Part shown: positions 6,199 through 62,416 of the stretch, in pieces
How positions within the stretch are numbered: the stretch's first letter is position 1
Layout: each line of letters begins with the position of its first letter
Assembly: GCF_000522985.1 (NCBI RefSeq)
Contig: NZ_CP007128.1
Coordinates: forward strand, 2,960,220-3,024,219
Direction: 5' to 3'
DNA: 64,000 nt
Origin: Gemmatirosa kalamazoonensis
Lineage (GTDB): Bacteria > Gemmatimonadota > Gemmatimonadetes > Gemmatimonadales > Gemmatimonadaceae
The notes under the pieces: model-generated
Seen by the model: the letters and a program-made list of their open reading frames with translations, nothing else
The model's database searches: none
What the model was told of the DNA's origin: nothing
Program-made: the position numbers and the translations under genes

Positions 6199-6203
6199 CT
6201 GCC

Positions 6204-6261
6204 TGGCTGCGTGGCTGCGTGGACGTGTCGTTACGCAGCCACGCAGCCACGCAGCCACGCA
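6204..6261. repeat. Spacer palindrome of 8-bp words (TGGCTGCG)
   Basis: The gap between the Omp85 gene and tamB holds TGGCTGCG-type tandem words (6204-6222) facing their reverse complement (6233-6261). In RNA this folds into a long GC-rich stem with a loop of about 10 bases. It ends ten bases before the tamB ATG, and no Shine-Dalgarno sequence is visible between. It belongs to the architecture seen in many spacers here. Confidence 0.85.
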
Positions 6262-11075: not shown

Positions 11076-11163
11076 GTTGGACGCGGATCGCGCGGATGGC
11101 GCGGATAGGTTGCCGCCTAACGTCTCCGGTCTATCCGCGTCATCCGCGCGATCCGCGTCCAAC
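11076..11163. repeat. 33-bp inverted repeat with GCCTAAC in its loop
   Basis: The arms 11076-11108 and 11131-11163 are complementary over 33 bases, with one G-U-compatible mismatch. They are built of 9-bp words of the form GCGGATCGC/GCGGATGGC. The 22-base loop holds the recurrent word GCCTAACG (11115-11122). The element fills the spacer between tamB and the lipid-kinase gene. No T-run follows, so it is not a classical intrinsic terminator. Confidence 0.93.
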
Positions 11164-25513: not shown

Positions 25514-25622
25514 CGGGACTCGGGACTCGGGACTCGGGACTCGGGACTCGGGACTCGGGACTCGGGACTCGGAAGGTGAAAGTACGTTAACCGAGTCCCG
25601 AGTTCCGAGTCCCGAGTCCCGG
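25514..25622. repeat. GGGACTC-heptamer palindrome (family 1, copy 1)
   Basis: Eight tandem copies of CGGGACT (25514-25569) face a 32-base complementary arm (25591-25622) with one deviation. The loop of about 18 bases contains GTTAAC. The element separates tsaD from lgt. Its right arm is read as the last residues of TsaD, and its left arm stops 4 bases before the lgt TTG. The same word builds elements at 28439-28540 and 32304-32408. Confidence 0.95.
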
Positions 25623-28438: not shown

Positions 28439-28540
28439 CGGGACTCGGGACTCGGGACTCGGGACTCGGGACTCGGGACTCGGGACTCGAGACTCGTTAG
28501 GCCCGAGACGCGAGTCTCGAGTCCCGAGTCCCGAGTCCCG
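28439..28540. repeat. GGGACTC-heptamer palindrome (family 1, copy 2)
   Basis: Seven copies of CGGGACT (28439-28487), then CGAGACTCG, face a complementary arm at 28504-28540. The loop carries the word CGTTAGGC (28495-28502). It fills the spacer between the PASTA gene and rpe, ending 5 bases from each. The arms differ from perfect pairing only near the loop, as if the inner part had diverged. Confidence 0.94.
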
Positions 28541-31299: not shown

Positions 31300-31377
31300 G
31301 CTCTACGCTCCACGCGCCACGGTCCCCGCTCGCTCCGCCAGTCGACGAACCGAGCGGGGAGCGTGGAGCGTGGAGCG
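31299..31377. repeat. GCGTGGA-heptamer palindrome (family 2, copy 1)
   Basis: The left arm 31299-31332 (34 bases) and right arm 31351-31377 (27 bases) are complementary series of the 7-bp word CGCTCCA/TGGAGCG. The length difference is exactly one word, as if a unit had been gained or lost. The stem begins at the fmt GTG and ends two bases from the def stop, so it fills the whole def-fmt spacer. Confidence 0.9.
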
Positions 31378-31378
31378 T

Positions 31379-32294: not shown

Positions 32295-33766
<1,472 letters not shown>

Positions 33767-33777
33767 CGCCCGGCGCA

Positions 33778-37237: not shown

Positions 37238-37261
37238 CGGCAGATCGTTGCCGTTCGAGTT

Positions 37262-37431
37262 GAACCGCAAAGGGCCGCAGAGGGCCGCAGAGAACGACAA
37301 CTGCTTTCTTACCACAGAGGACGCAGAGGACACGGAGGAAATCAACTCTCTTGAAAGGGTTCTCCTCTGCGTCCTCTGTGTCCTCTGTGGTTCAACACAA
37401 AGAGGCAGTCCTCTGCGGCCCTCTGCGGTTC
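37262..37431. repeat. Nested palindrome: CCGCAGAGGG outer arms, ACAGAGGACGCAG inner arms
   Basis: Two stems are stacked in one spacer of 268 bp. The outer arms 37262-37293 and 37411-37431 repeat GGGCCGCAGA. The inner arms 37311-37339 and 37363-37391 repeat CACAGAGGACGCAGAGGA, complementary apart from G-U-type exchanges. The result is a cross- or three-way-like fold of about 170 bases between the barrel gene and the DUF3667-like gene. The rest of the spacer (37432-37505) shows nothing I can name. Confidence 0.9.
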
Positions 37432-37505
37432 GAGCCGTTCCCACCGCCTCGGCACCCGGTGCCGCTGCCCTGGCGTGCTCCGCTTCACCGGCGTATCCGT
37501 TGCCC

Positions 37506-38480
37506 ATGGCCGTGTCCGAGATCCGCGCCGAGCCCTCGTACTCGCCCGCCGCCGACGTCGAGCGGTGCGTGACGTGCGGCGAACCGGCCGGCACGCCGTA
37601 CTGCGCGTCGTGCGGCGAGCGGCGGGCCGCGGACCGTCCGCGGTCGCTCGCCGCGCTCGGCGAGGAGATCTGGGACGCGTTCTCGCCGGTCGACGGGCGC
37701 ATCGGTCGCACGCTCTGGTCGCTCGTGCGGCGGCCCGGAGAGCTCACCGTCGCCTACATGCGCGGCGTGCGTCTCACGTACCTGCCGCCGCTTCGGCTGT
37801 TCCTGATCGTGAACGTGCTGTTCTTCCTGCACGCGTCGCTGTCGCTGTCGACGCGCGTGTCTGTGCCCGGCGCCGGGCGCGTGCGGCTCTCGTTCGGCGG
37901 CAACCGGATGCTCGACACGCCGCTCGCGGTGCACACCAACGGCGTGGCGCACCGATACGTGGCGCGGCGCTTCCTCAGGCGGCGCGTGCCGCCACGAGCC
38001 GGCGAGGACAGCGCTGCGTACTCGGCGCGCATCACGCGCGACTACGCGCCGGCGTTCGACCGCAACAGCACGACGCAGGCGAAGTCGCTCGTCGTCGCCA
38101 TGGTGCCGATGTTCGCGCTGCTCGTCGCCGCGCTCGAGTGGCGCAGGCGGCGCTTCGCACTGCAGGACGTCGTGTTCGCCACCCACACGATGGCGTTCCT
38201 GCTGCTCCTCGTCATCGTGGCGCAGTACGTCGTGGGGTTCCCCGTCGGCATCGCCCTCGTCGCCATGCACACACGCCCGACGGCTGGAGACATCGACTCG
38301 GTGCTCTCGGTCGGCGTCGGGGCGCCGCTCATGATCTGGCTGACGCTCGGGCTGCGGCGCGCGTACGGCGACGGCCGCCTCGCCGCGGCGGCGAAGGCGC
38401 TGCTGCTCGTCTTCGGGTTGATGTTCGTGCTCGCCGCGTACCGGGCGCTGCTCTTCTTCACCGTGCTGTTCACGACCTGA
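37506..38480 (+). CDS. DUF3667-like zinc-ribbon membrane protein
   Basis: The 324-aa protein opens with a zinc ribbon (CVTCGEPAGTPYCASCGERR, about 21-40). An amphipathic stretch follows (SPVDGRIGRTLWSLVRRPGEL, about 60-82). Hydrophobic helices occur near 95-112, 198-213, 227-250, 262-275 and 300-320. This is the form of DUF3667/YckC-like proteins of unknown role. ATG 37506 was preferred because the zinc ribbon starts soon after; upstream in-frame codons run into the spacer palindrome. No partner gene is evident. Confidence 0.8.
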   Translation: MAVSEIRAEPSYSPAADVERCVTCGEPAGTPYCASCGERRAADRPRSLAALGEEIWDAFSPVDGRIGRTLWSLVRRPGELTVAYMRGVRLTYLPPLRLFLIVNVLFFLHASLSLSTRVSVPGAGRVRLSFGGNRMLDTPLAVHTNGVAHRYVARRFLRRRVPPRAGEDSAAYSARITRDYAPAFDRNSTTQAKSLVVAMVPMFALLVAALEWRRRRFALQDVVFATHTMAFLLLLVIVAQYVVGFPVGIALVAMHTRPTAGDIDSVLSVGVGAPLMIWLTLGLRRAYGDGRLAAAAKALLLVFGLMFVLAAYRALLFFTVLFTT

Positions 38481-39534: not shown

Positions 39535-39619
39535 GGGCGAGGGCAGGAGGGCAGGAGGGCAAGAGGGCAGGAGCGCCTAACAGCCCTCCTGCCCTCCTGC
39601 CCTCCTGTCCTCCTGCCCT
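39535..39619. repeat. GGGCAGGA-octamer palindrome between convergent genes
   Basis: Tandem GGGCAGGA words (39535-39573) face CCCTCCTG words (39584-39619). The ten-base loop contains GCCTAAC (39575-39581). The stem starts right after the stop of the + gene and ends at the ruvB stop, so it can act as a two-way terminator or end-stabilising hairpin. No T-run follows on either side. Confidence 0.93.
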
Positions 39620-44818: not shown

Positions 44819-44890
44819 CGCTCCACGCTCCACGCGCCACGCTCGCCTCGCCGGTCCACGAAGCGAGCGTGGCGCGTGGAGCGTGGAGCG
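44819..44890. repeat. GCGTGGA-heptamer palindrome (family 2, copy 2)
   Basis: The arms 44819-44846 and 44863-44890 are perfectly complementary over 28 bases, with a 16-base loop. They consist of the 7-bp word CGCTCCA with one CGCGCCA variant, which is matched in both arms. The element fills the spacer between yebC (stop at 44895) and ruvC (start at 44808). The ruvC GGAGG lies just outside the stem. Confidence 0.95.
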
Positions 44891-45687: not shown

Positions 45688-45771
45688 CCTCTGCGCTCCA
45701 CGCTCCACGCTCCCCGCTCACTTCCACGTCCGCCGGAGCGAGCGTGGAGCGGGGAGCGTGGAGCGCGGAGG
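45688..45771. repeat. GCGTGGA-heptamer palindrome (family 2, copy 3)
   Basis: The arms near 45688-45719 and 45740-45771 share the 7-bp word CGCTCCA with CGCTCCC variants. The order of variants differs between the arms and leaves two mismatches. The element lies in the divergent spacer between yebC (-) and the PorX-like gene (+). That excludes a pure terminator role for this copy. GGTTAGGTTAGGG (45778-45790) follows directly before the + gene. Confidence 0.88.
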
Positions 45772-47357: not shown

Positions 47358-47440
47358 CTCCACGCTCCACGCTCCACGCTCCACGCTCACCATGACTCGC
47401 GAACACGTCGAGCGTGGAGCGTGGAGCGTGGAGCGTGGAG
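47358..47440. repeat. Perfect 31-bp GCGTGGA-heptamer palindrome (family 2, copy 4)
   Basis: The arms 47358-47388 and 47410-47440 are perfect complements over 31 bases, each more than four copies of the 7-bp word. The loop is 21 bases. The right arm ends two bases before the ATG of the MsbA-like gene, and the only suitable GGAG (47430-47433, spacing 9) is inside the stem. A folded leader would hide the ribosome site. Confidence 0.97.
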
Positions 47441-54722: not shown

Positions 54723-54743
54723 GACGAGTGGCGCGCCTTTCCC

Positions 54744-54875
54744 GGACTCCACGTACGTGTTTCTGATGGACTGAAGAAGGACTGAAGGAGGACTGAAGAA
54801 GGAACCTTTCAAGAGTCCTGCTTCAGTCCTCCTTCAGTCCTTCTTCAGTCCTTCAAGAACTTGTACGTGGAGCCC
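54744..54875. repeat. GGACTGAAGAA palindrome (family 3, copy 2)
   Basis: The outer ends CTCCACGTACGTG and TGTACGTGGAG enclose three 11-bp words (GGACTGAAGAA or GGACTGAAGGA) and their complement, with a loop of about 12 bases. It closely matches 33628-33766, including the outer ends, but its loop and some words differ. It lies between the convergent small lipoprotein gene and tyrS. Confidence 0.93.
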
Positions 54876-54890
54876 GGCCTGCCACGCCGC

Positions 54891-61585: not shown

Positions 61586-61736
61586 TGCGGCGGCGCTGAT
61601 GCGGCGGCGCTGATGCGGCGGCGCTGATGCGGCGGCGCTGATGCATCGGCGCTGGACCGGCGGTCCTATGAACCGCGCGTGTCCAGCGCCGCTTTTTCGG
61701 AGCCGCCGTATCGACGCCGATGTATCAGTGCCGCCC
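61583..61736. repeat. 14-bp tandem repeat array with distal complementary arm
   Basis: Four copies of TGATGCGGCGGCGC (61583-61638) begin at the TGA of the HNH gene. The last copy and its flank (GGCGGCGCTGATGCATCGGC) pair with 61714-61736, with G-U-type exchanges only. Inside lies a second stem (61648-61657 with 61681-61690). The element fills the spacer between the convergent HNH and DUF4390-like genes. Confidence 0.9.
61648..61697 (+). terminator. Intrinsic-type terminator after the HNH gene
   Basis: GGCGCTGGAC (61648-61657) pairs with GTCCAGCGCC (61681-61690), followed after two bases by TTTTT (61693-61697). Of all hairpins in the window this is the only one I see with a T-run, so it is the best classical terminator candidate. 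Confidence 0.7.
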
Positions 61737-61738
61737 CA

Positions 61739-62416
61739 TCAAGGGCGGAAGGTCCCCGACCGCGTCTCGTAGTGCCGCGACTCCGACCCGAGCAGTCGCG
61801 TGGCCAGCGTCCGCAGCCCGCGGCCTAACGCCGTGCCTGGATTGCGCTCTCCGCGCACCGCAGGCCGCAGCTCGCCGCGCAGCCACCGCTGCACCTCGTC
61901 GAGATCGTTCAGCGAGATCGTCTCCACGTCGACCACCGCGCTGTAGTACGAGCGGCGTCCGCGCCGCGCCGTGAGCGGCACGCGGTACGGCCGCTCCGCC
62001 GCCTGCGACGCGTCCTCGTAGGAGTCGAACACGCCGAGCGGCGTGACCCGGTTGTCGACGACGCGCGCGACGCCGTACGACTTGCGCAGCGGGTCGTACT
62101 GCAGCACCACGTCCCACTCCTGGGTGCCGCGCAGGTCGTCGAACCACCCCGCGACCGTCCACAGCTCCACCCGGAAGTGCACGCGTAGCGGGAACCCGTG
62201 CTCGAGCAGGTCGCGCATCTCGCGCTCGGCGAGCACCCCCGACATCAGCACGAGCGGGCCCTCCGTCGCGCGCGACGCGGGGTCGGGCAGCCGGATCTCG
62301 ATCCCCGGCCGTCCGCCCTGCGCCGACAGCGGACGCACCACCCCCGGCGCCGTCGAGAACGCGACGACGGACGCGAGCGGGACGAGGAACCGTCGGCGGA
62401 AGCTCGCCGCGGACAT
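61739..62416 (-). CDS. Secreted DUF4390-like protein
   Basis: The 225-aa protein has a signal peptide (about 1-33, ending PLSAQ). It then has a beta-rich domain with FPLRVHFRVELWTVAGWFDDLRG and QEWDVVLQYDPLRKSYGV, which resembles DUF4390. The C-terminal third is helical and basic. ATG 62416 is used; a GTG one codon earlier is equally possible. It lies 10 bases after the barrel gene on the same strand, so the pair is probably co-expressed and envelope-related. Function unknown. Confidence 0.78.
   Translation of the reverse strand: MSAASFRRRFLVPLASVVAFSTAPGVVRPLSAQGGRPGIEIRLPDPASRATEGPLVLMSGVLAEREMRDLLEHGFPLRVHFRVELWTVAGWFDDLRGTQEWDVVLQYDPLRKSYGVARVVDNRVTPLGVFDSYEDASQAAERPYRVPLTARRGRRSYYSAVVDVETISLNDLDEVQRWLRGELRPAVRGERNPGTALGRGLRTLATRLLGSESRHYETRSGTFRP

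Follow-up and report, generated by a model that had tools for sequence, protein, structure and literature searches.

The locus at 37262-37431 raises the question of what a hairpin lying within the loop of another hairpin, between two co-directional genes, is and how it came to be there. We analyzed this element within the window, by which we mean the whole stretch of 64,000 nucleotides (64 kb; C2:2960220-3024219), and against the host genome of 7.48 Mb in four contigs. Gemmatirosa kalamazoonensis KBS708 has a 5,312-kb chromosome and two large plasmids of 1,106 and 1,041 kb (PMC3974934).

A nested hairpin composite and its copies in the host genome

The features of the locus are as follows.

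37262..37431, no strand: composite nested hairpin element of 170 bp, one of 40 or more such copies genome-wide
37262..37288, + strand: left outer arm, the 10-bp word CCGCAGAGGG iterated
37405..37431, - strand: right outer arm, inverted
37311..37339, + strand: left inner arm, the 9-bp word CACAGAGGA / CGCAGAGGA / CACGGAGGA iterated
37363..37391, - strand: right inner arm, inverted
37340..37362, no strand: inner core and loop, a degenerate version of the RAACCAAC...GTTGGTT core that is recognizable by eye in other copies and in three further word families of the genome
35972..37237, + strand: upstream gene, a 421-aa ORF whose stop codon lies 24 bp 5´ of the element
37506..38480, + strand: downstream gene, with a likely ATG at 37506 as the presumed start

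The outer arms (27 nt) are 89% complementary and the inner arms (29 nt) 90%, with a perfect 18-nt core, CACAGAGGACGCAGAGGA, shared by the inner arms (37313-37330 / 37363-37380). On the + strand the RNA fold reaches -118.8 kcal/mol, compared with -61.8 ± 4.7 for 200 dinucleotide shuffles (z -12.1, none as low), the DNA fold gives a z of -10.5, and the RNA fold is very stable on either strand. The nested double palindrome described in the first-pass annotation is thus confirmed, far above chance expectation. The three-way or cross structure suggested with it was not supported: the predicted minimum-energy RNA fold is a single long, nearly continuous stem, and covariation across 21 composite copies (of the 30 fetched, those with a nearly full-length match) added no support, with a term of +0.41 and a kept two-sided change in only 2 of 49 pairs. 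An Rfam 15 search with the window element returned only microRNA-hairpin look-alikes, at less than half their gathering scores. We also noted that the ORF listed from 37248 runs through the element (37248-37505), the palindrome being read as protein; spurious N-termini of this kind are likely in annotations.

The word of the inner arms, with up to two mismatches, was found 275 times on the + strand and 268 times on the - strand of the whole genome, compared with once on each strand for the reversed control. The full 170-base query gave 80 matches, corresponding to at least 40 distinct places, the window copy included; since the element is palindromic, most places were matched twice, once per strand. 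These copies are 79-100% identical across at least 133 of the 170 bases, and their number is a lower bound, since 40 of 211 candidates were scored. An apparent strand pattern among the listed inner-word matches was dismissed as an artefact of the listing, in which even the window copy is missing. The copies have GAACC...GGTTC borders, and 9 of the 30 that were fetched are framed by CGCGGAG...CTCCGCG within 90 bp, forming a third shell.

Hairpins as such are abundant in this genome. Seventeen with a score of at least 16 are found in the window, compared with none or one in each of ten order-1 Markov sequences of equal length. An 864-kb genome sample (800 kb taken at even steps plus the window) contained 132 hairpins above this threshold, which rough word rules, misfiling a few rows, sorted into ten word families with 30 left over. 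The inner core RAACCAAC...GTTGGTT is, by eye, common to the CAGAG, CGCGGAG, GGACTGAAG and CAGGAT families. In this unbiased sample, a second inverted repeat scoring at least 16 surrounds 3 of 101 classified hairpins (the window composite, L196 and L222) versus none of 306 random positions; at a score of at least 14 the counts are 10 versus 1, and most of the extra seven resemble the hairpin's own arms extended further.

Several other words are represented among the window's hairpins. Heptamer arms of (GGGACTC)n are present at 25535-25621, 28439-28540 and 32318-32408, and of (CTCCACG)n at 31305-31378, 44819-44890, 45688-45771 and 47358-47440. Arms of the 11-bp (GGACTGAAGAA)n type with CTCCACGTACGTG borders form hairpins at 33616-33776 and 54742-54877, and hairpins with GGCTGCGT, CGCGGAT, GGGCAGGA and GGCGGCGCTGAT arms are located at 6200-6261, 11076-11163, 39540-39619 and 61597-61741. 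The iterated-heptamer look of some of these hairpins is shared with cyanobacterial short tandemly repeated repetitive (STRR) sequences, and the (GGGACTC)n hairpins resemble heptamer repeats of both cyanobacteria and Xanthomonas.

Given its position 24 bp past a stop codon and its very stable RNA fold on both strands, the window hairpin could be mainly a transcription terminator or a stabilizer of mRNA 3´ ends, kept for that purpose between co-directional genes. We consider this very unlikely as the main explanation: it leaves the 170-bp copies at 40 or more places, the nesting and the arms that frame GxxExxY genes (described below) unexplained, covariation lends it no support, and no Rfam family came near its gathering score. 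Terminator or stabilizer use may come on top of mobility.

Inverted arms around GxxExxY genes

The arm words of the host repeats also occur beside genes of the GxxExxY family (TIGR04256 / PF13366 PDDEXK_3). The partner genes are members of this family: all four proteins scanned passed the TIGR04256 cut-off, and 98 of 98 matched PF13366. In the host genome the PF13366 profile gave nine matches, representing seven GxxExxY genes, with no match within the 64-kb window. Four of the seven have hairpins on both sides (L009, L011, L015, L017), two have a hairpin on one side (L010, L014), and L012 has inverted arms (score 22) with no hairpin of score 15. The L015 gene is framed by the window composite's own word. 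Since L015 and L017 match the profile in two pieces each (L013/L015 and L016/L017) and L014 matches over part of it, some of the host copies look decayed. When the flanks of the seven genes were searched for in the 864-kb sample, recurrence was clear only for L011, L015 and L017 (14-24 sites); the two flanks recurred at 4 and 6 sites for L009, 0 and 4 for L010, 0 and 4 for L012, and 5 and 3 for L014, compared with 0-13 sites for control pieces. For the GGGACTC, CTCCACG, GGGCAGGA, GGCTGCGT and GGCGGCGCTG families, the first of which includes the three (GGGACTC)n hairpins of the window, a GxxExxY partner with the same word was not seen in the host genome. L011 is framed on both sides by the same (GGACTGAAGAA)n hairpin as is found at 33616-33776 and 54742-54877 of the window, and the CGCGGAT word adjoins L010. 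A plasmid or phage vehicle was considered and rejected, relatives of the L009 protein being present in 7 of 72,556 plasmid records and 0 of 50,697 phage records.

We collected loci from one genome scan across many phyla (80 loci) and from a search of Gemmatimonadota (30 loci), in which 48 of 150 genomes have the family. A reading of the flanks of 20 loci showed that, outside the host genome, the GxxExxY gene itself sits between two arms; in Scytonema (L101), for example, AACCGCAGAGGCGCAGAGAACGCAGAG lies 5´ of the gene and its imperfect reverse complement 3´. For each locus, the 300 bp upstream were aligned to the reverse complement of the 300 bp downstream, and with a test and threshold fixed only after those 20 loci had been read, inverted arms scoring at least 16 were present at 75 of 111 usable loci, leaving 36 below the threshold, compared with 1 of 91 windows taken 1 kb out, which are mostly coding DNA. 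The same score was reached by 15 of 555 swapped pairs and none of 555 shuffles, and by direct, non-inverted flank similarity at 30 of the 111 loci. Lowering the threshold to 14 gave 84 of 111 loci, 7 of 91 far windows and 36 of 555 swapped pairs. The span from arm to arm has a median of 507 bp (quartiles 464 and 582). Loci collected later from seven whole genomes, each picked with one armed locus known, were armed in 26 of 28 cases, or 18 of 20 after removal of eight repeats of earlier loci; here 30 of 33 matches had loci, two of them unusable. At 68 of 73 loci the left arm carries the word on the strand of the gene, at four on the other strand, and at one equally on both.

Armed loci span 13 phyla, four of which are represented by a single locus each. 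They comprise 12 of 12 loci in Verrucomicrobiota, 10 of 19 in Bacteroidota, 8 of 13 in Planctomycetota, 5 of 7 in Chloroflexota, 5 of 6 in Pseudomonadota, 3 of 4 in Thermodesulfobacteriota, 3 of 3 in Acidobacteriota, 2 of 2 in Cyanobacteriota, 1 of 3 in Myxococcota, 1 of 2 in Fidelibacterota, and 1 of 1 in both Cloacimonadota and Spirochaetota, along with 17 of 29 in Gemmatimonadota, 5 of 7 in the host genome and 1 of 2 unassigned. The first-pass annotation had likened the inner word to repeats in unrelated phyla, and this was borne out: rather than being confined to close relatives, CAGAG-type words are found beside genes of Scytonema (L101), Pseudomonadota (L102), Thermodesulfobacteriota (L083) and Bacteroidota (L073). 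At two loci (L051 and L052) CAGGAT hairpins lie head to tail 3´ of the gene, about 185-200 bp apart, and contigs C4, C15, C24 and C36 of genome G174 hold long arrays of alternating CAGGAT arms.

Word, protein and genome

Paralogs within one genome can differ in word, as for G175, with CACGGAG, CACGGAT, CAGGATT, CGCAGATTA and CGCAAAG arms. We compared arm words with protein lineage using a 93-protein tree, every member of which has an arm score of at least 16; the tree was built from 119 columns, and 50 of its 90 inner branches are open. Seventy-three proteins fell into four arm classes, defined by our own regular expressions, and the 20 classless ones were left out of the counts. The classes require 18 changes on the tree versus 37.9 when shuffled, with none of 200 shuffles as low. 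As a comparison meant to separate a match between word and protein from the relatedness of the hosts, we took the nearest protein from another phylum, which shared the class in 47 of 73 cases (shuffled mean 20.2, maximum 34 in 500 shuffles). In the starred nine-protein clade, with members from Chloroflexota, Cyanobacteriota, Planctomycetota, Thermodesulfobacteriota and one unassigned deltaproteobacterium, the words are AAG-type in seven proteins and GAG-type in two. The arm word thus follows the protein lineage, even across phyla. Between the wide transfer and the convergent origin that had been offered as explanations for the shared repeats, transfer fits better because of this tracking.

An intergenic site (L138) was compared across 30 genomes of one genus related to the host's; the product of the gene that follows begins like what we take to be CinA. 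Among the sites read, the remaining genomes having longer gaps or broken contigs, six genomes (G039, G055, G079, G151, G157 and G159) carry a GxxExxY gene, two (G163 and G168) have 275 bp that include a hairpin but lack the gene, ten have a spacer of 33-78 bp (L154, L155, L157, L158, L159, L162, L164, L167, L170 and L171) and three have 1.1-1.3 kb of other DNA (L156, L169 and L172). The flanking pieces are approximately 67-89% identical, too divergent to place exact junctions. Filled and empty states at one orthologous site, as expected of a mobile element, are observed here for a gene-bearing element in a genus related to the host's and do not concern the copy in the window. Within G039, arms like those of the L138 element match at least 21 times at nine or more other loci (10 of 105 candidates scored), and five of those nine loci hold hairpins of the L138 word.

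Short repeats and gene presence also coincide within genomes. CAGGAT words were found in 6 of 6 genomes with a CAGGAT-armed locus (1 to 55 hits) versus 4 of 19 others (one-sided p 0.001), with L051 counted as CAGGAT-armed although its score is 15.5. The four exceptions each carry another GxxExxY gene with CAGGAT-like arms (L245, L249, L252, and L236, whose arms are mixed with one CAGGAT unit), and inspection of two genomes with zero hits, G180 and G194, showed no such arms. All 5 genomes whose arms carry the CGCCAAG word hold at least 18 such words, as does 1 of the 20 others (p 0.001); this exception, G193, has 109 hits, and its known GxxExxY locus (L088) has CAGAG-type arms. Among Gemmatimonadota, 12 of 48 genomes with GxxExxY are rich in CRCRRAG-type word pairs versus 1 of 102 without (p 4e-6, or 1.2e-5 without the host genome), by a rule set after the counts had been seen that drops G048 for a high control (140 vs 96). 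G049, with 48 CACGGAG-type word pairs, has no GxxExxY match, so that either its hairpins lack a visible partner or the assembly has a gap.

Gene-framing inverted repeats with dispersed copies are also the anatomy of REPtrons and TIRtrons, in which a RAYT or TIRYT tyrosine transposase gene is accompanied by REP or TIR repeats and dispersed non-autonomous copies (PMC3733652). This likeness could mean that the present repeats are REP-like sequences whose mobility depends on a Y1 tyrosine transposase, GxxExxY being no more than a passenger. We regard this as highly improbable, given that a Y1_Tnp (PF01797) profile search of the host genome gave no match despite its hundreds of repeats, while the same search was positive in 5 of 14 control genomes, and that Y1_Tnp is about as frequent in the repeat-rich (4 of 13) as in the remaining (40 of 137) of the 150 Gemmatimonadota genomes (p 1.0). 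Membership of the host repeats in the REP/RAYT (REPtron) group was rejected on the same two grounds, although they are dispersed, multicopy intergenic palindromes, as REPtron repeats are.

A candidate nuclease and its possible role in moving the repeats

Four residues (G32, E35, D74 and K86) are invariant in the 98 aligned GxxExxY proteins and five more nearly so (Y38, E84, Q98, Y102 and L103). D...ExK...QxxxY is what we take to be the pattern of RecB/Cas4-type PD-(D/E)XK nucleases. A structure model built from 98 of 107 proteins reached a pLDDT of 91.5 and a pTM of 0.83, whereas a single-sequence model (pLDDT 37) was useless. The best structural neighbors of the model are Cas4 SSO0001 (Z 10.3, rmsd 3.5, 102 aligned residues) and AF1548 (Z 8.2, rmsd 2.3, 85 aligned), followed by Hjc (7.4) and LHK-Exo (6.6), for which a Z below 8 perhaps reflects merely a common arrangement; Foldseek matches include lambda exonuclease and MGME1. 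The partner proteins thus have both the conserved D...(D/E)xK site and, as predicted, the alpha-beta core fold of the PD-(D/E)XK superfamily, and the modeled fold would fit an enzyme that cuts DNA ends, forks or hairpins. By sequence, no relative with a solved structure was found, and of two proteins scanned, one resembles Cas4 weakly (E 0.0024). A reading of GxxExxY as a defense protein was set aside, nothing beyond this weak likeness having been found for it.

We consider it probable that the window feature is a nested, non-autonomous, MITE-like copy whose autonomous partners are elements of about 0.5 kb in the order arm, GxxExxY gene, inverted arm. Computation shows how the element is built, that it is present in many copies, that arms and gene go together in 13 phyla, that arm word and protein lineage match, and that one orthologous site is filled in some genomes and empty in others. 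The first-pass annotation, right about the double palindrome, had missed both the multicopy composite and the link to the GxxExxY nuclease. The broader proposal, to which we give an even chance, is that these elements form an undescribed minimal mobile-element superfamily in at least 13 phyla, in which a lone Cas4-like nuclease of about 130 residues recognizes its own inverted arms of iterated words, mobilizes itself and gives rise to hairpin derivatives numbering from tens to hundreds, with protein and word as lock and key and with copies nesting in loops. In the preferred explanation, each GxxExxY protein would recognize the word of its own arms, probably once this has folded into a hairpin or cruciform in the course of replication, and would cut it; the strand so released or copied would then be inserted anew with the aid of host functions, in some cases within the loop of a hairpin already present, giving 'Russian doll' composites such as the window copy. 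The window having no GxxExxY match, its copy would therefore move in trans. Movement by the nuclease is what we infer from these sequence patterns. Counted against this explanation are the lack of a visible target-site duplication (in a weak test of 30 composite copies, with about eight borders badly placed, the sum was 14 versus 11.0 shuffled, and 50 of 200 shuffles were as high), the 36 of 111 loci scoring below 16, genomes G049 and G193, the word families without a partner, and the small nesting counts of the unbiased sample (3 of 101 versus none of 306).

Several of these points would also be expected if the repeats were target or binding sites rather than ends, with a third factor, such as another transposase or replication slippage together with gene conversion, making the hairpins. 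The lack of a target duplication in that weak test, the host word families without a GxxExxY partner, the repeat-rich genome G049 and a fold resembling DNA-repair nucleases and a Holliday junction resolvase (at Z below 8) all favor such sites. Against them stand the inversion of the arms on the two sides of the gene with a fixed strand (68 of 73) and the tracking of the protein by the arm word between phyla, features expected of element ends. On balance we hold the binding-site explanation to be unlikely, though worth keeping in mind; under it, GxxExxY would be a nuclease residing within or close to such DNA, for example a repair enzyme that processes hairpins or a nuclease of homing type that lands on them.

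Compared with known systems, the preferred reading, an arm-framed nuclease gene with dispersed hairpin derivatives, is closest to REPtrons and TIRtrons. Both comprise a single small gene with inverted repeats or hairpins at its sides, are intergenic and have dispersed non-autonomous copies, and in both, species with several families have repeat-specific partners (PMC3733652). The enzyme here is a PD-(D/E)XK nuclease and not HUH/Y1, the arms are iterated words of 7-12 bp, and 13 phyla are involved. By analogy, the present elements would work like REPtrons and TIRtrons, yet they are not members of that family because the Y1 enzyme is missing. Cas4 and lambda-type exonucleases share the predicted fold and the D...ExK...QxxxY pattern with GxxExxY, which, unlike Cas4, is stand-alone, has about 130 residues and shows only weak sequence likeness to it. 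Like MITEs and cyanobacterial STRR sequences, the repeats are short, multicopy, intergenic and non-coding; a typical MITE has a DDE transposase as its partner and is flanked by a target duplication, of which none was seen for the present copies in the weak test described above. Rpn / YhgA-like PD-(D/E)XK 'putative transposases' are named in PMC1913061. These nucleases are likewise suspected of moving DNA and belong, by description, to another Pfam family than GxxExxY. We know of no iterated inverted arms for Rpn/YhgA-like proteins.

In a literature search, with most subscription journals outside reach, we found no function or repeat association for the GxxExxY family, and the papers within reach left the origin of iterated intergenic hairpins unaccounted for; the passage on the family in PMC8934634 is incidental. 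Iterated intergenic CAGAG, CGAAG, CCAAG, CGGAT and CAGGAT hairpins are found in genomes of many phyla. Linking these repeats to the nuclease suggests what the GxxExxY proteins may do and what may produce the repeats, and many pairings of nuclease and word follow from it as predictions. Should the nuclease be able to move DNA by itself, this would be a route of transposition or homing by an enzyme class for which, to our knowledge, no case of its acting alone in either process is known. Word-specific nucleases of about 130 residues could also serve as tools.
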